From: Cloeon dipterum
Taxonomy: Eukaryota; Arthropoda; Insecta; Ephemeroptera; Baetidae
Direction: 5' to 3'
Assembly (NCBI RefSeq): GCF_949628265.1
Contig: NC_088788.1
Location: 31,172,335 to 31,236,334 of the forward strand
DNA: 64,000 nt
Shown: piece after piece, positions 1,624 through 41,900 of the stretch
Layout of the letters: each line of letters opens with the position of its first letter
Numbering within the stretch: the stretch's first letter is position 1
Made by a program: the position numbers and the translations under genes
Notes under the pieces: generated by a model
What the model was told of the DNA's origin: nothing
Seen by the model: only the letters and a program-made list of their open reading frames with translations
The model's database searches: none

Positions 1624-4600
1624 ATGTCAAGACATCGGGACGTGCGTAGTATCAACTACACAGATGGTAATAAGAAACAATATCATAATATACAATTCAC
1701 TAGACTACATAATTATTACATAGTTGCAATCTGCAATAACAATGAAATTGCCCGGTATCAACAACAGGAATTAGAATTTCTTTTGATTAATCAAATTTCA
1801 GAATGCGAAGGCTTAGATGATGTCTATGGACATTCGCTTGAGGATGACTACAGCGTGTCGCCTAGCGTTGGTACAGTACCAAAATAACTTCTTGTAACCT
1901 AGCAAAACGCAACTTCAATTTTCTTGTAGAGCAATTTATGTTTGATCGGACTAAACAATCAGACATATCAGCATACATCAGCAAAGGCAAAGATGGAATT
2001 GCAGAAGAAGATGAGAACACTGAGGAAATGTCGGTGCCCTCACATGTGAGGCCACAACTGAACGACATTGACGAGGCTCGCTTGCAATCTTGCTTGGACG
2101 AAATTCGCAATGTTATTGGTGACTCTACCCCAGAGAGAGTTCTTATTGACACCATAGTAAAAAATGGTTTTGACATTCACCGATCACTTGATGCAGTCCT
2201 AAACTCCAGTGCTATAAAAAGTATATTTTTGTATTATTTGGTGAGAATTTTAATAATTACATATACGTAAACTTATAGCACCAATAAAGGGAGCTTCTGA
2301 TGAACAAAGAGAAAAAGGTGATTAGTTTGCTTTTAAGCAATTAATAACAAATACTAAACAAATTTGTTTCCATTCCATGATTTGCTGTTTCCTGTTCTTG
2401 TTTGGGAAGGTAAGATTCAATTTTGAACTCACTTGTTGCTGGTCTTGAACTGCCTCCGCCACCTGCTTTTGATCTCCCAATGCCGTCTGCAATCGACCTT
2501 GGCGCAGCTCTTGTGCCTTCAATGTCCAACTTAGTCCTGTCCAATTCCCAAATGGACAACTTCGCATTTCAAACTGCCCTACTCCCTCCACCCCCTCCGC
2601 TTGAGCTAGGCTCATTCTCTGCTGACGTTGATCTTTCCTCTGCATTGGTCGGCCCACCACCGACTATTGATCTCAGTCTGCCACCTCCTTTGGACCTTCC
2701 TCCTGCTCCCTACCTTGACCTCTCAAGTGCCTTTGTCCAACCAAATGCCGAAAAATCGGCCCCAGTCAAAGAAAATATTAGACCTGTAAAGAGCAAGGTG
2801 AAGATGTCTGCTCACAGCTATGGCATTAATCTTGATGAGGCTCAGCAGAAGTCAGATGCCCTGCTAACGTCAGAATTCCATTTTGTGACCAGAAAGGTGT
2901 CTGACTTGGGCTTTCTCATTTGTAGAAAGTGGACAAGGAAGAATACCCCAGTATATACTGATCCTTACCCAACTAAACGAGCTGTAGCCCATTTCCGGTT
3001 CAATTGTCCTTCACCTGACGATAACGTCTTGAGAGCATTGAATAAAAACTTTAGAAAATAAGCTTTTCCAAGTTAACAATATGCTATATTATCTTTACTC
3101 CAACATTTCATTTTTATAAAATGTGTTTTCCTATCTTAACCCTAAATGGTGAGTTTAAAAATAAGCTAAATGTATGCTGGTTGAAATGATCATTGTTTCA
3201 TTTAAATGTTACAGTTGTTGTCGTACCAAAACAAGAAACAATGATCATGACTTTGAGGACTCCTGAGCTGGCCAAAGTTTCAAAGGCTAAAACGTTGAGC
3301 GTCACCAAAGGATTCGACATCACGCCAAAATCGGGTTAACTAAGCAATGAGAGCTTTTCAACCTTAAAGTTAAATGTCAGGCCAAAAAATTTCAGGCACA
3401 AAAGCTGAGCCAATGGACATTTCACCTCGTTCCCAATCTCCTAGTGTGGAGTCAGCACCTGAAAAGCTCAAAATTGATGTAGAAAAAGAGGCAGCTCTTA
3501 TAAAGTATGGGATTAAAGCAATGCTTAACGTGTTAGCTCAAACTTGATTTGCAACAGAAATAAGGAACTTCGAGGGGAAGCTGCTGTTGCCCGTTACAAT
3601 GAGGAGCGATCTGGAACCAAACCTCTGCTGCACATGGTGGTGATTGGCCATGTTGACGCTGGCAAGAGTACTTTGATGGGCCATTTGCTCTTCGATCTTG
3701 GCCAGGTGAACCAGCGAACAATGCACAAGTATGAGCAGGAGAGCAAAAAAATTGGGAAGCAGTCGTTCATGTACGCCTGGATTTTGGACGAGACTGGAGA
3801 AGAAAGGTACAATATTATATAATATTTTTACGGCGATAAAATGACGGAATTTTAGAACCCGAGGAATCACAATGGATATTGGACAGTCGAGGTTTGAAAC
3901 AGCTTCCAAAAGCGTTTTGATTCTTGATGCACCGGGCCACAAGGACTTCATCCCAAATATGATTAGTGGGGCAACGCAGGCAGACGCAGCTGTGCTTGTT
4001 GTGGACGCAGGAAGAGGCGAATTTGAATCTGGGTTCGAGAGCGGAGGCCAGACAAGAGAGCATGCTTTGCTTGTCAGGTCGCTAGGTAATGTCACTTCAA
4101 AATTCGGATGGGTCGAGCAATAGGTACATTGTTTTTACTTCCAGGTGTCAGCCAGTTAGTTGTTGTTGTCAACAAACTCGATACAGTGGGCTGGGATCAA
4201 ACCAGATTCCTGGAAGTCGCGAACAAGCTTGGTTCTTTTCTTCGACAGGCAGGCTTCAGAGATGCGGATGTTTGTTTCGTTCCTTGCAGCGGCCTCTCTG
4301 GTGAAAATCTGACTAAATCGCCCACTGAAGATGCGCTACTGAAGTGGTACCATGGACCATGTTTAGTTGAGGCGATCGGTAATATTGCTGCAGAGGAGTC
4401 ACGTGAATCGAATAACCTAAGTGCACTAAACGTTTCAGACAAATTCAAGATTCCTGAGCGTCCCATTTCTAAACCATTCAGGTTGTCTGTGAATGACATT
4501 TTCAAAGGGACAGGAACAGGCTTTTGTGTCAGCGGAAGGGTGGAGGGTGGCTCCATTCAGTCTGGCGACAAAGTTTTAGTGCAACCGCAAGGAGAAACAG

Positions 4601-5228
4601 CTGTTGTCAAAAGTAAGTTGAGCTAAATAAGTCGGAGGAGCACATTTTCATACTTGCTTCTAGGTATCACCTTGGAAGAGATGCCTTATCAAGTGGCGTT
4701 TGCTGGCGACCAAGTGACTCTAACCCTTTCTGGATTGGACATGCAAAACATCTCTTTGGGCTACATATTGTGCGATCCAATGTACCCTGTTCCTGTCACT
4801 ACTCGCATAGAAGCAAGAATTGTTTTGTTTAACCTCCAAGTTCCCATTACTCAAGGATTCCCAGTGAGTTAATCATATTGTTGCTTTGGGCATGTTTTTT
4901 TTTATTTCGTTTATTAGGTGTTCTTCCACTCTCAATCTCTTGTTGAGCAAGCTGTCATCACCAAATTGATTTCCCAACTGCATCGAGGTTCTGGTGAAGT
5001 GACTAAAAGACATCCACGGTGTCTTCCCAAAAACACAAGTGCTGTTGTTGAAATTACGCTAAACCGTCCTGTAAGCCTCGAGTTATACAAAGATGTCAAG
5101 GAGCTTGGAAGATTTATGTTGAGATCCTCCGGAGTCACAATTGCTGCTGGCTTAGTCAACAAGGTATAGCCTATTTTGCTTATTAAGTTTTTGGAGTGAT
5201 TGAAAAATCTCGCTCACAGATTTACTGA
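1624..5228 (+). CDS. HBS1L: HBS1-like translational GTPase, ribosome rescue factor (long isoform)
   Basis: Exons: 1624-1666, 1802-1870, 1930-2220, 2279-2317, 3215-3334, 3396-3504, 3558-3806, 3856-4085, 4145-4612, 4664-4863, 4918-5163, 5220-5228; all phases agree and give about 690 residues, close to human HBS1L (684). The N-terminus MSRHRDVR plus an acidic [12 protein letters not shown] stretch and a helical segment form the HBS1 N-terminal domain (about residues 1-110). The G domain has GHVDAGKS near residue 255, DAPGH, NKLD and SGLSG, followed by EF1A-like beta-barrel domains 2 and 3 ending in GRFMLR...TIAAG. HBS1 with Pelota rescues stalled ribosomes in no-go and non-stop decay. The last intron begins GTATAG, so retaining it ends the protein one residue after Lys with Val; splicing ends it Ile-Tyr. 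Confidence 0.94.
2415..3061 (+). CDS. Alternative terminal coding exon of HBS1, SKI7-like isoform
   Basis: The fourth HBS1 exon ends in phase 1 at 2317. Two acceptors downstream accept that phase: 3215 (long GTPase isoform) and 2415, which opens a 215-codon frame ending in its own stop at 3059-3061. The joined short product would have the HBS1 N-terminal domain and no GTPase, about 360 residues. The exon encodes a Pro/Leu-rich first half with repeated Asp-Leu units ([30 protein letters not shown]) and a conserved-looking C-terminus with [20 protein letters not shown]. As I remember, human HBS1L makes such a short isoform (HBS1LV3), which acts as SKI7, bridging the cytoplasmic exosome and the SKI complex, and PSPDD-type motifs recur in those tails. 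Identity is an inference from position and motif. Confidence 0.78.
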
Positions 5229-5557: not shown

Positions 5558-6707
5558 TTAATCTCTCCCTGGATAGTATTGGTCAATGTGTTTCACAATT
5601 TCCTGTGCTAGTTCCATGGAGCTTGCACACAGGCAGCGCCGGCTCATTACGTCAAATTCTCCACCTGGAAACGCCATTGTATGATTCATCATATAAATTT
5701 TAAAAAACCGTCGCTAGCAATTCTAAGTATTATACCTGCTGGGTCAATGACAACTCCACCGGCCTCACGTACAATCAGGTCACCTGCGGCAATATCCCAT
5801 GCATGAATTCCAAACTCAATATAAGAATCTGAAGCTCCCATGGCAACCATAGCCATGTTTAAGGCAGCAGATCCTAGCGCTCGGATGCTAGGGGATTACA
5901 CGATTTCAAATTGATATATTTACCAAAGTTTTCTTATTTACCCGTGGGCAAGGGGGACAAGAGTGTTAACATTTTTCAGTACAACCTTCATTTTTTCTGG
6001 GTCTCTGCTAGTTCCGACCTCGAGACTCAGCAAAGCCTTAGAGAGCTCTATAAGTGCAGACATTCAAAATATTAAGGTCAATTAAACGAATCGATAAATT
6101 CTAGGACAAGCACCATTCACGGAGGACACGTGGATCTTGTTTCCGTTGAGAAGAGCCCCTTGTCCTTTGCGGGCTTCGAAAAATTGGCCCAATACTGGGT
6201 TAGTGATGATTGCAATCTCAGGCACTTTGTTAATCAGCAGAGCAATTGAAATGCAAACGTGCGGAAAGGAATGGACAAAGTTCATGGTGCCATCTACAGG
6301 ATCGATGATCCACGTTGGGGCTTCAGTCAACTCATTCTTCTGTCCGTCTGCTGTTGATTCCTCTCCAATGAACCTAATTTAATGTATATCAATTATTTCA
6401 TCATGTATACACAGTCATGGAATAATATTACTGGTGGTTAGGGAATTTTTCCTTCAGTCCATTAATTAGAAGTTTTTCGACCTGTTGGTCAGTTTCCGTG
6501 ACAAGGTCCACTTCACAGCTTTTGAGGTGTATCTCTTTGGCAGAATTAATGCCGTTGCGAATCAGCTGAAGGAAATTACAATCGAGATTATTTAACCTCT
6601 AAAAATTAAATATTTCAAACAGGAATCAAGTAACTCACCTCTTCAGCTTGTTTCACCAGTTCCAAAAGAGTCTGGTAGCACAGGTCCAAGTCAATGCTGT
6701 CGCTCAT
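5558..6707 (-). CDS. IMPA1: Inositol monophosphatase
   Basis: Minus-strand exons 6639-6707, 6432-6565, 6373-6114, 6047-5942, 5887-5736, 5664-5558 join in phase to 275 residues, the usual IMPase length (human 277). Motifs in order: VDLVTETDQ near residue 45; FIGEES with the metal-binding Glu pair; WIIDPVDGT, the hallmark metal site; and [16 protein letters not shown], whose Asp (third metal/substrate ligand) sits in the normal W-D context. The enzyme dephosphorylates inositol monophosphates with Mg2+ to regenerate free inositol in the cytosol, feeding the phosphoinositide cycle used by phospholipase C. Exon 3 ends at a GTGCTT donor (6113-6112), chosen because it restores the homologous reading (VSSVN then ELSKALLS). 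No defect is seen. Confidence 0.94.
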
Positions 6708-7141
6708 ATTTGCAGAAATGTGTCGAGTCGGGTGCTAACTCAATGCCTGTCCTCGGTGTGATTGAAAAGTGACCTAGGCTTACATCAGTGTCCAAGCTCA
6801 GAACTCATTTCGTCATACCTGCGCATGAGCATCCAAATGCTTTGTTATGTAAGCGGCAGTACACGCCTTCTTTCAATTTATCATAATAATATTATTCCAT
6901 GTTCCAAATAAAAATGTAAGGAACGTGTAGACTCTTGAACTGATTGTGCTCTTCTTCAGCAAATTTGTGACTCTTTCAGGAAAAGCGAGGGTTTCTGAGA
7001 AAATCTGTTTTATTCAGAAATTTACACCGATAAAACAAAATATGTCTAATAAAAGAAAAAATGGTTTCGTTAAATGAGAATGATCATGTTTATTATTAAA
7101 AGTGATTTGCACTCAGCAAGCAGTTAGGGTAATCATGACAT
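6708..7141. other. IMPA promoter and NOP56 3'UTR
   Basis: Both flanking genes run on the minus strand, so this holds the 5' end of IMPA and the 3' end of NOP56. TTTATT at 7089-7094 (AATAAA on the minus strand) is the likely NOP56 polyadenylation signal, about 50 bp behind the stop. Nothing else is recognised. Confidence 0.6.
7089..7094 (-). terminator. NOP56 polyadenylation signal
   Basis: AATAAA on the minus strand, 48 bp downstream of the NOP56 stop codon. Confidence 0.55.
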
Positions 7142-8836
7142 TCACTCAGCAGCCACTTTGCTCTTCTTCTTTTTCTTCTTAGGTGAAACTTCAGCATTTC
7201 CATTTTCCGCCTCGCCATTTTCTGGTTCAGGCGCCACACTCTTCCTCTTCTTCGCTTTTGGGGTTTCTGCCTCCCCATTTTCAGCGTTACCGTTCACACC
7301 ATTCACTGAGGACTTCTTCTTCTTCTTCTTCTTTTTGTTTTTCTTTTTCTCAGCTTCAACGGAAACTTCAGCCAGAGCCTCTTCCATGACAGAGATGTTT
7401 GTTGCCGGTTTCTCGCCACCTTTTAGGAAGGAAAGACGATCTTCAATCTGCTGCTTCAGCTTTGTGCCATAGATTTTGGATGGTAGGTCAGAAAAGCAGT
7501 CAAGTCTGGCTGCGATGGAGCATTTGCTAGCAATGTATCTGGAAATTCTACCCTTGTGTTGTGGTAGAGCCCTGCCAATGTATGTTGAGTGAAACAACAA
7601 TCCATATTTTGGTGTGTTGCTTCTGGTCCTCAAGGCTCTGAAAAATTAATTTGTTTTTTGATCTATCACTGAAATAATTTGAAATTAAATGATTTTTACC
7701 TGAACAAAGCCTTCTCAGCTCCAAGGATTTGAAGTGTGGAAGAAGGGTACTTGGCCAAATTGGTTAGCGAGCCAGCATGGGAAATGAGCCTTGCGCCAAT
7801 CTGGTCTCCAATAACAGTTCCCAGGTTGGGGGCAATGGCATCCATCTTATTATTTAGGTAATGAGACGTGCTCTTGCGGTATTCAGCCAAAGATACCACT
7901 CTCTGGGCAAACAACTCAATGTTTGCCAGATCAAGAGTGGAGATGTCCATGCCCATTGAGCAGCGAGCAAGTTTCAAAATAAGCTCTGCCTTAGATGCAT
8001 CTTGGACCAATTCCTCCAGCTCTGTTAAATAAAAAATTTGTTACTACCTTACAAAAAAGACGGAGCATTCTGATCATTACCTGGTAAGTTCTCTTCAGAC
8101 AGTTCCTTTCTGTTCTTGATGAGCTGGACAGCCCTGGCGTACATGTAATTGTCGGTCACAACTTTAACAAGCTCTGGGAAGTGGTATGAGTACCACTCCT
8201 TGATCCTCATGGAAAACGTGTTGATATCCTTGTCCAACTGGTCAAGAAGAGCAATGCTCTGGATGATCATGTTGTCCACCCTGTTGACGTTGAACTTGAC
8301 CTTGGCTCTGGAGTAGCTGTGTCCCAGTCCGAGTTGCGCCTTGCCTGATGTTTGAAGGGTAAAACCTTTGACAAGGTTGTGAAAGTGTGCGCGGATTCCT
8401 CGAGTGATTTCAGGAACTACACCAGTGTGTAAACACTTGGTGTTAAGAGCTTCTGTGATGGCTGATGCCAGTTTCGGTTCAATCAAGCCCAAAGTAACTT
8501 TTCCCTGAAATTAGTTAAGATTTTGTTTCCTTCAGTAATTGAATAATTTCTCAATGAATATGATATTACCTTCTTGCTGCTTTGGGGCAGGTATGTTTCC
8601 AAGAACAGCTTGAGCTCATCGGGCAAGACACCTTCAGAAATGCTGTTTATGTTTTCCAAGGCCACTACTGCAGTTTTAAATGGGGTGAAACCAACTAGCT
8701 TAACCACCGAGCTAAATTTGCCAAAATCAGTGACAGAAGCCTCCACTTGTGGAAGCAATGCACCAACATCTTCAAATTCCTTAACCCTGAACAGGGAATA
8801 GCCGGCAGCGTGTTCGTATAACACGTATAGATCCAT
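7142..8836 (-). CDS. NOP56: NOP56, core protein of box C/D snoRNPs
   Basis: Exons 8836-8570, 8504-8081, 8021-7700, 7637-7142 join in phase to 502 residues. The product begins [16 protein letters not shown], the NOP5/NOP56 N-terminal domain, passes through a coiled coil (about 160-250), and contains the NOP domain with [20 protein letters not shown] followed by [12 protein letters not shown] near residue 340. The C-terminus is a Lys-rich low-complexity tail with several runs of 4-8 Lys, as in NOP56 of other animals. NOP56 pairs with NOP58 and fibrillarin to guide 2'-O-methylation and pre-rRNA processing in the nucleolus. The start codon is the first base triplet of its exon: the acceptor TTTGTAG directly precedes it, and a GTGAGA donor at 8922 marks a non-coding first exon. 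Introns were checked for snoRNAs; none was convincing. Confidence 0.95.
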
Positions 8837-9973: not shown

Positions 9974-12393
9974 ATGGATTCGCCCCCTTTATCAGGTGGA
10001 CTGTCGTGGTCTCAGGGCTTCCCATCTAGCGATGACAGTGGCCTCCTCTTGATGAGCGGATTTAGTGGTTCTTCTATTTCCAGTGAAGAGAGTGCACCCA
10101 GCAACTTGGCAATGGAAGTGAGTTATATAGAATCAAATAATCCCATTTAACCAATTTTACGTAACTTGCTGCGGTGTCGCCTCTCTGCTTACAGGTTCAA
10201 GAGAGTGACGAGGATGGAACAACGATCCGCCAGAACAGCGAAGCCTTCAACGGGATGAGCTGCGAGGACTTTGACACTCTGAAAAAAGTTCCAGAGTGGC
10301 AATTGGAAAAGCCAGTCGCGCCTCCGCCCGAATTCCAGGACGTCCCCTCGACCTGCTCATTTGATTATCTGCTCATAGAGAAATACGCAAAAGCCTTGGT
10401 GATTGATGTGATAAACGAAGCGTTGGCTGCCTCCAGTCAGATCACCTGGGCCATCGAGTGCTCTCAGGAATGCCACCCATCGTCGACGTCACTGCGCAGG
10501 CGGAAGGACAGCGGGCCCCGTCTGTGCTGGACGCCCGAGATCCCGTTCAGTCCGTGCCACCACCGACCTGGCTCAGTGGGCTCGCTCGCCTCGTCCAGGC
10601 TCTCCATCTCGCACAACTCACTCAGCATCCCTCGCTGCAAGGCGGACGACTCGAGCTTCATCACGCTGGCCATGTCGCACGACCTGCTGCTCGGCGAGAT
10701 GAGCGAAATCTACAATGTGCCCATCGAAAGTGATATCTACACTCTACCTGTGGACACGGTGCACCAGGAAAACGGTGAGCCGCGCAAGCAGAAGCGCAAG
10801 GTGCACCGCAAGAAAAGGCGCCACACATCGAGCAGCTCGGAGACGGGCCACGGCGCCGCCACGAATCGCCGCAGCCGGCGCAGCGGCCGAAACTCTGCCA
10901 CCAGGGCCAGCGCTGAGACCCTTGAGTCGGGAAAGCGGCACTCGATGCCGTCACGCAGGCCCGGCCCGTCCCACTCGACCAACGAGTGCTCTGCCAAGTC
11001 CAAGGAGCCGGTGCACATGACTCTGCAGGAGGTGCGCCAGTACCTGCAGAATCTCTACTCAAGCTCAAGCGATTCGATGGAGCGGCGCGCAGAGCAGCCG
11101 CGGTGCCGCGCCAGGCCCAGCTCTGAGCCCAAGATGCCAGCGCCACCGCCGCCCAACCAGAGGATGACGACGCCTAACAACCCGCAGAAGAAGACCACCT
11201 TCATCAATAGCATCAAAATGCGCAAGTCAAAGAGCATTGAGGCGCGCGACGACAAGCCGGCGCGCAAGTGCAGCAGTTTCTCCAACAGCATTAAACAGAC
11301 CCTGTGCAGCATATTCAGGTTCCGCAAGGTGGCAGGTGGTGGTGGTGGCTGCTTGGAGGCGGAAAAGGTGGCCCCCAAGTCGGAGGAGAAGGTGATTCTG
11401 GAGCCGCCCGTGCCGAGCGGCATCACGCTCGAGAATATTTCCATTAACTATGGCGTGAGTGGCGAAAACGCGAGAGCGCCCTTTTCGCACCGAGCGTTAC
11501 CACCCCTGCCACCCTCAACTCAGAATAACAACAGTGATTTTCCCACCCTGGAGGTCGACGAAGATGAGATTCAGTTGTTGCGCATCAAGGAGGACGAAAG
11601 CAAGCCTCCTGAGCCTGGCGAAGAGATCAACATGGCATTCGCTTCGAGCATACAAAAAGTGAAAGATGTAAAATGTTTTGTGTTTTGTGAATAAATTTGA
11701 TTTCTTATTCGGGCGTGTTTGCAGTACGGCTGGTATTGGGGCCCAATATCTGGAGAAGCAGCGGAAAAAGTACTGTCGACAGAGCCAGACGGGTCTTTCA
11801 TTGTGCGTGATAGCAGTGACCAGCATTACATCTTTTCCTTGTCGTTTCGGTTAAACGGAAATGTAAGACACGTCAGGATAGAGCACGATCAAGGTGGGTA
11901 CACCAACTGGAGCTTTGCCACCAACTAATCCGCTCGTTCACAATTGCAGGAAACTTCAGTTTTGGTAGTTGTACCAAATTTAAGAGTCACACCATAGTAG
12001 ATTTCATAGAAAACGCTGTGGAACATTCACGAAGTGGGCGCTACTTGTTTTTCCTTCATCGTCGTCCTGTTCTTGGACCCATGCGGGTTCAGCTATTGCA
12101 TCCCGTGTCACGTTTCAAGCAGGTCTCAAGTCTCAAACACATGTGCCGGTGGGTATTTTTTCATAATTGCTCTTAAATATTTAGATGCTAATACTTTTAC
12201 TTCTGTGCTTGCCAGGTTTGTCATTCTAAAGATGGTGAGAAAGGATATGATCCCAGCCTTGCCACTGCCCCGACGAGTGATCGAATACCTGAGCACTCCT
12301 CACTATTACGTGGAGCAGCAGCTGGAAGAGGAAAACTCGGGAAGCAGTGGATCTGATTTGCTGTCGTTCGTACCGCACCGACCTCTTTCCTGA
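9974..12393 (+). CDS. Suppressor of cytokine signalling, SOCS6/7 type (Socs16D-like)
   Basis: Exons 9974-10117, 10195-11667, 11725-11893, 11950-12148, 12216-12393 join in phase to about 720 residues. Residues 1-530 are disordered, Ser/Pro/Arg-rich, with a basic patch (KQKRKVHRKKRR) and much higher GC than the flanks. The SH2 domain (about 540-640) starts YGWYWGPIS and has the phosphotyrosine pocket FIVRDSS. The SOCS box follows (about 645-690): an Elongin-binding BC box SLKHMCRFVI and a Cullin-5 motif with LPLP. Long N-terminus plus this SH2 class fits SOCS6/7 rather than CIS/SOCS1-3. The family recruits an Elongin B/C-Cul5 ubiquitin ligase to phosphotyrosine proteins such as receptor tyrosine kinases and IRS. 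A two-codon uORF precedes the start. Confidence 0.92.
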
Positions 12394-38909: not shown

Positions 38910-41900
38910 CATTTAACATGTTTTTACCCCACTATAGTAGATCCCCATGTGTTTTAATTAAATTGTAAACATATAACTCACCCTTTGCTGTTTTCTCCTC
39001 TGCGGTTGCTGGCTCTGCTGAGCGCCTCCAGCCCATTCCAACTCCTCAACCAGCACAAACTTGGTGGGGTCTTCAAGGCGCCTGGCCTTGACCAGCGCCT
39101 GCGCTAAAACGTCCTGAGTCGAGCTGCCCAGCGGCACTTTTAGGATCGCGTACGGGATTTCTGGCGAGACATTGTAGACGCACACCAGGAAGTTGTCGTG
39201 GTCGTCCCAGCTTCGACCCTGAGATACGAATTCTTTAATTGATCGGCATTTCGCGGAATTAATACCACACTCACCACATGTTGTGATGAGAGGTCGGTGG
39301 CCGATCTGGCTGAGGAGAGGCCGGCCGTGCTCCTGATGGACGAGAGCCACGCCCTGCTGCTAGGGTCGTCGCCCATGCGTTTGAGGATGAATCGACCTTC
39401 GCCCTGCCAGCTGGCCTGCGCCTGCAGCGGCCGCTCATGCAGGTCGAGCACCCTCTGCGTGGCGGGCATGTCGCGATCTTTCTTCTCCCAACTGCGTGCC
39501 ACCTCCTCCACCAAAATGTAGTCCTGCGCCTTGTCAGCACCAAGGTTGGCCTTCTGCAAGGCCTGCACGATCACCTCCTGCGTGGTGCTCTCCTGAGTTA
39601 TCTTCAATATTGTGTACGGCTCGTCGGGGATCACACCAAACACCTGGAAAATTTTCCTTCATTAATGAACTCTTATGGAATCAAATCAATTTACCATGAG
39701 GAAGAACATTCTTCTCTTGAGCGGCACAGTGACACTCTCGATGAGCTCGGCTTGTTCCTTCTCCTTGCGAGCCTTTTCGGTCACGGAAGTTGAGCCACTC
39801 AAGTGAGTCTGTATTTCGCTGTTCTCCATCGAGTCCAAACTCTCTTCCTCAGTGCGTGAATACACAAACAGGGTGGACAACTGCAGAGGCTGGTTCTGGG
39901 GGGAACGGAGCCGCACGTGTCGATAACCGGGACGAAGCCGGGTCAGGGGCAGTACTCGTTGTGATAGAAGATGGTTTGTATTGGCGTCCATCACGCTGAA
40001 CCTCACAAAAGCTAACTCCCTATATAAAAATTATTTAATAATATAAATGATGATAATGAATTTGCTACTGTTTTTAATTATGAGAGTAAAAATGCTGACA
40101 AACCTGAACATAATTTGGAAAAAGAAAGCGTCATTCCAGATTGGGTTGATGGCATTACGCTGGATGACTTTGGTTTTCTGCTTGGCGCAGTCTACTGGAA
40201 TACCGATCACTTCGACCTCGACGTATAGACTTGAGCTGAAGTTGCTCTGGCTAACGTACTGTCCAGACACAACCGTCAGAACCAGGTGCACAGAATGGAG
40301 ACCGTCAAATTCTTTGTCCCATGGGTTAAATCTTCTGTACATCATATGACTCCTGAAGCAACAACAAAAAATAATCAACTTAAAAAACATGGTGTTTTTA
40401 TTCTCTTTTTCGTTGATTTTTTTATTTAGAAAAGTTATTTTTTCTTTCATATCAGTCTAGTCCACAAATTCTTTTGAGAGTAAAATTGCAATTTATACTT
40501 AATTTGAATACGAAAATCACCCCTTAAAAATTCACAATGTGCAACTCTTGTCTCTGGCGTGCCTTGCAAGTTGCATACCTAAATTATGAATAGTTTACCT
40601 GTCCCACATCACAGCCGGCTTTCGAACGTATCCGCAACGCCCGTTTTGCTCAAACATTGCTGTGTTCAGATGAAGAGCAGCGTCCTCAGTCTGATAATTA
40701 AGCGCAACCATCTGAATGCCAAACGCCCAGAAGATGACCGGATTGAAGTTGGACGAGTCTATGCGCATCCCTGCAGGATAAGTTCGCATCAGCTGCGTTT
40801 CCGTGTGGGCAACCAACGCGAGGGGCTGCTTTCGGCACAGTTTCTTGGCCGAGTTTTCGTTCAGACTGGAGCACTGGTAGCACGGATGGTTCACGTTGGG
40901 CCTCTTTGAGAAGCTGGAGTGCGAACCGGGGATTAGACTCGATTCGATTGGCATTGTGGTGGCCAGGATGAGTGACGATGACGCGCTTGAGGTGCTGATT
41001 GACGACGTAGCGCCCGTGTTGGTAGGCGTCCCTGGAACTGAAGTGCCTTGTTGGGGCAAACCTGCAGGATGTTCATCGCATTATCAAGATTTATTTATTT
41101 TTGCATGAGAAGTTTGCTCACCTGAAGGAGTATTGTTGCCCTTTTTAATAGCTGTTGAGGATGAGCCGGAAGGAGCAGGTCTGCGACTTCTTACTGAACT
41201 ATTGGGGCTAATTGTGTTGAGGGACCTGAACTTGATGGCCTGGATGTAAATAATCATGTCGGACAGTTCTTTGGCGATTTGGCTGCTCTGCTTCTTTGGT
41301 TTGTGTGAACCGAAATCATCATCAAACAGCCAATCTTGACTTCTCAGTGCAGTTTGTGGGACCGAAGGGTGCGAGTGGCGCATGTCGCGCAGTCCAGCGC
41401 CTTCGTGGCTTGATATTGAGTCAGTCCGAGGTCCCAGCGAGGAGGATTTAGCTAAAGAACTACTCTTATCTTCTGTAAATAAGGCAGAAAAAATGATCAA
41501 AATTTTATTTTTCAAAACCAATATGGCTTGATTTAAATTATTAATTATCAAGGTAATATTACCATCAAGATTTTCGTCTTCATCATCGTCATCATCATCT
41601 TCGTCTTCGCTAAACTCGTCATTGACAGAGCCACCACTGGTGTTGCTGACTATGCTGGAAGCCCTGCCGGACGCAGCCTTATTCACGTTGGGAAATGCGC
41701 CCTGCCTAGATGTTCCCCTTGGTGCCATTTGAATGTCAGTCATCAGTTTTTTGTTCTTGATTAAAATTCGGTGTTTGAGCTGTGCCGGGGATGGAAGACA
41801 CGGCTCGTCACTGAAGTCAGTCTCAAACAGGAACTTTGTGATCAACTTGTCACCAAACACAGACTGAAAATAATATATATCAATTTTTTAATCGGTTTAT

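Follow-up and report, generated by a model that had tools for sequence, protein, structure and literature searches.

A window of 64,000 nucleotides from Cloeon dipterum (C3:31172335-31236334 of a 190-Mb genome) harbors a gene for HBS1, the GTPase that partners Pelota, and one intron of this gene contains an additional open exon. We consider it very probable that the gene is a single HBS1/SKI7 locus with a SKI7-type alternative terminal exon, as found in vertebrates. An HBS1 gene with a SKI7-like terminal exon had been proposed earlier by a sequence-only reading of the same DNA, and the analysis described below supports that interpretation.

Gene model and coding capacity of the additional exon

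The HBS1 gene spans positions 1624-5169 of the plus strand, and its 11 exons yield a spliced product of 689 residues. When this product was compared with HBS1L (5lzw_jj), residues 1-688 were covered (E 3.7e-199, 666 bits), while the best scores were 317 bits with eRF3 and 312 bits with eEF1A. Exon 3 encodes an HBS1_N domain (PF08938, E 7.6e-13) that also matches a UBA-like structure (1ufz, E 2.2e-12). The presence of HBS1_N and an EF-Tu-like GTPase, together with a full-length match to HBS1L that exceeds those to eRF3 and eEF1A, places the product in the HBS1 family.

Nine introns of the gene are 49-135 bp long, and the intron that follows exon 4 has 897 bp. The latter contains an open frame (2414-3061) of 215 codons that ends in TAA. 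The donor of exon 4 (2317|GTGATT) leaves phase 1, and both the acceptor at 3214 (TTACAG|TTG) and the acceptor at 2414 (GGTAAG|ATT) are compatible with the frame. Hence, the sequence-only reading was right in stating that a phase-1 donor at 2317 can be joined either to 3215, giving the GTPase form, or to 2415, giving a 215-codon terminal exon with its own stop. Joining of 2317 to 2415 (acceptor AG 2413-2414) keeps the frame, and the predicted protein has 362 residues: the common N-terminus with HBS1_N is followed by a low-complexity linker and a Patch-4-like end, with no GTPase. By layout and phase, the putative isoform thus shows the organization expected of SKI7, an in-frame alternative terminal exon after a common N-terminus that lacks the GTPase. 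The 2317-2415 junction is predicted to be used, and both HBS1 and SKI7 transcripts are predicted to be produced from the locus. As exon 4 has phase 1 at both ends, its skipping would also preserve the frame.

An in-frame TAA at 2411-2413 excludes the AG at 2409, so that 2414 is the sole usable AG before residue 32; other phase-compatible AGs found downstream (2507, 2534, 2609 and others) would remove N-terminal coding sequence. A pyrimidine-rich stretch and a CTAAAC are located upstream of the alternative acceptor.

Shuffling of intron 2318-3214 (3000 trials) produced longest open runs that averaged 81 and never exceeded 195, and shuffling of the exon's own bases produced an open run of 215 in 1/3000. 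The exon is protein-coding by three tests. A codon model was trained on 1204 codons drawn from HBS1 and from parts of the adjacent Nop gene, with the alternative exon excluded; this training set includes 2 stop codons, contributed by stretches that extend beyond exon ends or beyond the HBS1 stop. The model placed the proposed frame at the top of the six for the whole exon, for each half and for the first 31 codons, the latter narrowly (0.252 vs 0.221 for a reverse frame). Synonymous codon choice resembled that of the training genes (0.093 vs a null of -0.097 ± 0.044, a value reached by 0/2000 null sets). The period-3 signal of the exon (4.77) was higher than in all 1000 shuffles (maximum, 4.51). 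The GC contents at codon positions 1, 2 and 3 are 0.56, 0.44 and 0.42, compared with 0.31 in the intron before the exon and 0.27 after it.

Relation of the exon to SKI7

The C-terminus of the exon was examined with a Patch-4 profile made without the window sequence; the pattern F.F...[ST]PDD.[VI] considered below was not used, and the rows were chosen by the analyst. The exon ranked first among 2697 six-frame open reading frames (ORFs) of the window (E 8.8e-4; next, 1.9). It also ranked ahead of the rest when the profile was restricted to the letters of human and yeast (E 0.0036; next, 0.37) or to rows based on the published consensus (E 0.0016; next, 1.5). Its profile score of 16.0 bits was reached by 0/5000 shuffled exons, the best of which had 14.5. 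Furthermore, [ST]PDD occurs once in the 127,996 residues of the six-frame translation of the window, and this occurrence is in the alternative exon. The pattern F.F...[ST]PDD.[VI] derives from the published consensus, but the positions kept were chosen after inspection of the exon; the resulting expectation of 4.6e-6 is therefore optimistic and is not relied upon. When the C-terminal part of the exon was aligned with human SKI7 (9g8m_E) ITPFDFKSASPDDIVKANQKKAFTRE around PSPDD, 9/20 residues were identical over FDFKSASPDDIVKANQKKAF, and in both proteins the motif is found at the extreme C-terminus, followed by a short tail. The exon thus has, close to its C-terminus, the Patch-4-like motif (F.F...SPDD) expected of a SKI7.

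The possibility that a chance open frame bears a chance PSPDD might be invoked because the pairwise score with human SKI7 is marginal by itself. However, the open-run shuffles, the Patch-4 profile, the codon tests and the motif counts make it practically negligible.

Several observations weigh against a SKI7-type exon. The alternative acceptor is AAG, preceded by GGGAAGGT, while the remaining acceptors of the gene (10/10) end in CAG or TAG; the acceptors of the two adjoining minus-strand genes, read by eye, are also CAG or TAG (8/8). For the SKI7-like motif (A+PShFAahL), the best ungapped site has a score of 11, which was reached by 2892/5000 shuffles; upstream of Patch 4 the motif is thus at best degenerate. 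Smith-Waterman comparison with the human SKI7 segment gave a score of 40, equalled by 106/5000 shuffles, and among 1626 ORFs of the window one scored above the exon and another one equalled it. Searches of PDB with phmmer, using the exon or its last 86 residues, retrieved no SKI7 chain. In the reverse direction, a search of the genome with the human SKI7 segment (E up to 10) did not retrieve the exon, and one match was found elsewhere (E 0.4). Weighing in the same sense, the EXOSC1 family, whose profile has a CSL4-family match above cut-off in the genome (E 6.6e-10), was also matched in 3/14 controls, so that it does not specifically demonstrate CSL4. Searches of the genome with SKI2_N and TPR_22, profiles that we take to be linked to SKI2 and SKI3, gave no match; the 14 controls were also silent, and these searches are therefore uninformative.

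Pairwise similarity to human SKI7, which we do not take as defining, was accordingly at most marginal, and the SKI7 resemblance is resolved by the motif profile only. A search with zebrafish Ski7 likewise missed the Drosophila protein (PMC7924785). For this reason, a failed pairwise search is not counted against SKI7 membership. The sequence-only reading had likened PSPDD to human and plant SKI7. This is borne out by the rank of the exon in the profile search and by the presence of PSPDD in the plant consensus, although the plant comparison is looser.

The weak AAG acceptor fits an alternative exon, and is yet the softest part of the gene model. An atypical acceptor would also suit a nested or separately promoted gene that started from an internal Met (frame residue 23), with no splice isoform. 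We hold this to be very improbable: the coding appearance extends back to the acceptor (including the narrow lead of the first 31 codons mentioned above), the frame agrees with the phase of the common exons, and the two proteins of the human gene have a common N-terminus (PMC11540850).

Consistent with a single locus for both proteins, a search of the genome with the HBS1_N profile detected one locus above the cut-off, with a second match (20.4 bits) below it. When the C-terminus of the exon was compared with the genome, no second good match was obtained (next, E 0.61). A separate SKI7 gene was not seen in the genome, where a diverged copy without HBS1_N would escape. No relative was found in collections of viral contigs and genome contigs, as expected of an animal gene. 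The first 3000 bases of five contigs contained none of the telomere repeats looked for.

The region between the acceptor and the C-terminal motif is a proline-rich linker. Hydrophobic-[DE]-Leu, a pattern picked after the sequence had been inspected, occurs 8 times in 110 residues compared with 1.36 expected, a count that 0/10,000 shuffles matched. Plain DL occurs 6 times (1.73 expected; 19/10,000 shuffles reach 6). The Asp-Leu repeats noticed by the sequence-only reading in the first half of the exon are therefore real, and they may be binding motifs. The units are encoded by varied codons, and no DNA repeat of at least 15 was found; the combination points to selection on the protein. Single-sequence AlphaFold2 modelling of the exon gave a mean predicted local distance difference test score (pLDDT) of 41.5, with a sole helix (residues 203-214) of low confidence. 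A phmmer search with the exon found no counterpart of the linker in PDB, and no part of the exon is explained less well than its hydrophobic-[DE]-Leu units.

An exon that is a true alternative terminal exon might have kept the CSL4-binding part only, or might play another role, without forming an exosome-SKI bridge. In favor of this view, the SKI7-like motif is unconfirmed, the similarity to human SKI7 is marginal pairwise, and no PDB counterpart was found for the unusual Pro/Asp/Leu-rich array of the linker. However, a weak Ski7-like motif has been reported in Drosophila too (PMC7924785), and we regard the absence of a bridge as improbable.

Feature coordinates and neighbouring genes

The features of the HBS1/SKI7 locus and of other loci in the window are listed in Table 1.

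Table 1. Coordinates of features in the C. dipterum window.
Feature	Position	Strand	Basis
HBS1/SKI7 exon 1, start of protein	1624..1666	+	Aligned with first Met of HBS1L chain
HBS1/SKI7 exon 2, acidic N-terminus	1802..1870	+	Gene model, HBS1L match
HBS1/SKI7 exon 3, HBS1_N / UBA-like domain at about 2004-2213	1930..2220	+	PF08938, 1ufz
HBS1/SKI7 exon 4, 13 codons, last common exon	2279..2317	+	Phase 1 at both ends
Probable SKI7-type alternative terminal exon, open, own stop	2415..3061	+	Open frame, phase, coding tests
Pro-rich linker, 8 hydrophobic-[DE]-Leu units	2444..2722	+	Motif count
Candidate SKI7-like motif, best match of the exon to human ARPSAFASTLCLRY	2891..2932	+	Ungapped scoring, not significant alone
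Patch-4-like motif (PSPDD) and C-terminal tail	2993..3058	+	Profile search; AlphaFold2 helix in tail
AATAAA hexamer within last codons of SKI7 exon	3041..3046	+	Motif; putative polyadenylation role
First exon specific to HBS1	3215..3334	+	Gene model
Later HBS1 exons, linker and GTPase domains	3396-3504, 3558-3806, 3856-4085, 4145-4612, 4664-4863, 4918-5169	+	Domain matches, HBS1L match
Inositol monophosphatase-like gene, PF00459 match	piece 6082-6378	-	Pfam
Nop56/58-like small nucleolar ribonucleoprotein (snoRNP) gene, Lys-rich tail	7142-8836	-	PF01798 in two pieces
509-codon open frame, no Pfam match at E up to 0.01	10165-11694	+	ORF list, Pfam
Pieces with Ras-association domain and PI-PLC X domain	39140-41887	-	Domain search

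The inositol monophosphatase-like gene, whose extent was estimated by eye (about 5558-6710, minus strand), lies immediately downstream of HBS1, tail to tail with it. Around the 509-codon open frame, GC content is 0.55 (10001-12000). The pieces with Ras-association and PI-PLC X domains presumably resemble a phospholipase C epsilon-like gene.

Known HBS1/SKI7 systems and a proposed mechanism

Production of HBS1 and SKI7 from one gene has been published for fungi, plants and vertebrates (PMC3597508, PMC6143672, PMC7924785), and Ski7 orthologues of insects and Drosophila, with a weak Ski7-like motif, have been mentioned by Cabrera-Quio et al. 2021 (PMC7924785). The gene described here thus adds to a known type: it is a further example of an arrangement already in print, and will not surprise the specialist. 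Beyond that mention, no account of an insect SKI7 terminal exon was found in the literature searched, which is not a claim of absence from print. In the excerpted main text of the Drosophila Hbs1 paper (PMC6397311), the words 'isoform' and 'splice' do not occur.

Comparison with individual systems can be summarized as follows:

(i). As in human HBS1L isoform 3 (SKI7, HBS1LV3; PDB 9g8m chain E) and zebrafish Ski7, a common N-terminus with a UBA-like domain precedes a distinct C-terminus with its own stop, no GTPase and a Patch-4-like motif near the end. Human SKI7 and HBS1L have residues 1-144 in common (PMC11540850). The common N-terminus is thus of about 145 residues in human and 147 here, and the isoforms part after a residue that corresponds approximately to HBS1L residue 140 by manual count in a poorly aligned stretch. 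The predicted divergence point is therefore near that of human HBS1L and SKI7. Differences are also seen: the human protein has 632 residues and this one 362, the spacing between the two motif positions is 48 residues in human SKI7 and 30 here, and conservation of the SKI7-like motif is unclear in the present protein, which has a Pro/Asp/Leu array. For insect and Drosophila Ski7, the published description gives a weak Ski7-like motif (PMC7924785), to which the candidate motif of the exon may correspond.

(ii). Arabidopsis HBS1/SKI7 also has one locus for both proteins, and PSPDD is found in the plant Patch-4-like consensus. Unlike the gene described here, the plant form involves a cassette exon, and plant SKI7 has a zinc finger in addition to the retained GTPase (PMC6143672).

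(iii). Saccharomyces cerevisiae Ski7 (PDB 8qca) shares Patch-4 (yeast letters NFNRPSPDDIIQSAQLNAF). However, Ski7 and Hbs1 are two genes in yeast, and Ski7 retains a GTPase-like domain (PMC7924785).

These comparisons permit a tentative mechanism. Splicing of 2317 to 3215 would yield HBS1, a translational GTPase that would split stalled ribosomes with Pelota, while splicing of 2317 to 2415, with polyadenylation just 3' of 3061, would yield the 362-residue SKI7. The common UBA-like N-terminus might engage stalled, possibly ubiquitinated, ribosomes; an N-terminal SKI7 fragment associates with the 40S subunit (PMC13232801). In human SKI7, C-terminal patches bind RRP43-MTR3 and CSL4, the last helix contacts SKI2, and an upstream helix binds SKI3 (PMC11540850). 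By analogy, the isoform is predicted to bind the exosome (RRP43/CSL4) and the SKI complex (SKI3/SKI2): the C-terminal, Patch-4-like PSPDD would contact the exosome through its cap protein CSL4, the final helix would point toward SKI2, and the disordered linker would reach SKI3. The SKI3-binding part of the isoform cannot be recognised, and only its position makes the hydrophobic-[DE]-Leu array a candidate. A bolder proposal, which we consider unlikely, is that the one helix that binds SKI3 in human SKI7 has been swapped in this lineage for some eight hydrophobic-[DE]-Leu motifs in a multivalent array. A single SKI7 might then accommodate more than one SKI or ribosome-rescue factor, and choice of the weak acceptor would set the GTPase-to-adaptor ratio.

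The HBS1:SKI7 ratio might depend on how often the weak AAG acceptor is chosen and on intronic polyadenylation. AATAAA at 3041 and TATAAA at 3115, the latter downstream of the stop of the SKI7 exon, could terminate the SKI7 message. Since the exon ends at 3061, cleavage soon after AATAAA could cut the message at its stop codon or ahead of it, in a gene that itself serves the decay of messages without a stop. The weak acceptor and the intronic hexamers are also what one would expect if the exon were chiefly a premature-ending switch that reduces HBS1 output, with an incidental protein. Such a switch has very little probability, as codon choice and protein repeats with varied codons indicate selection on the protein, and an exosome motif would be superfluous.

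If the SKI7-type exon is used as predicted, an early-ended message would give a short adaptor that joins ribosome rescue to RNA destruction, instead of a rescue enzyme. The locus would thus provide a concrete animal gene, with exon coordinates, that encodes the exosome adaptor as well as the ribosome-rescue GTPase. Its nearly human layout suggests that the terminal-exon form may predate vertebrates.
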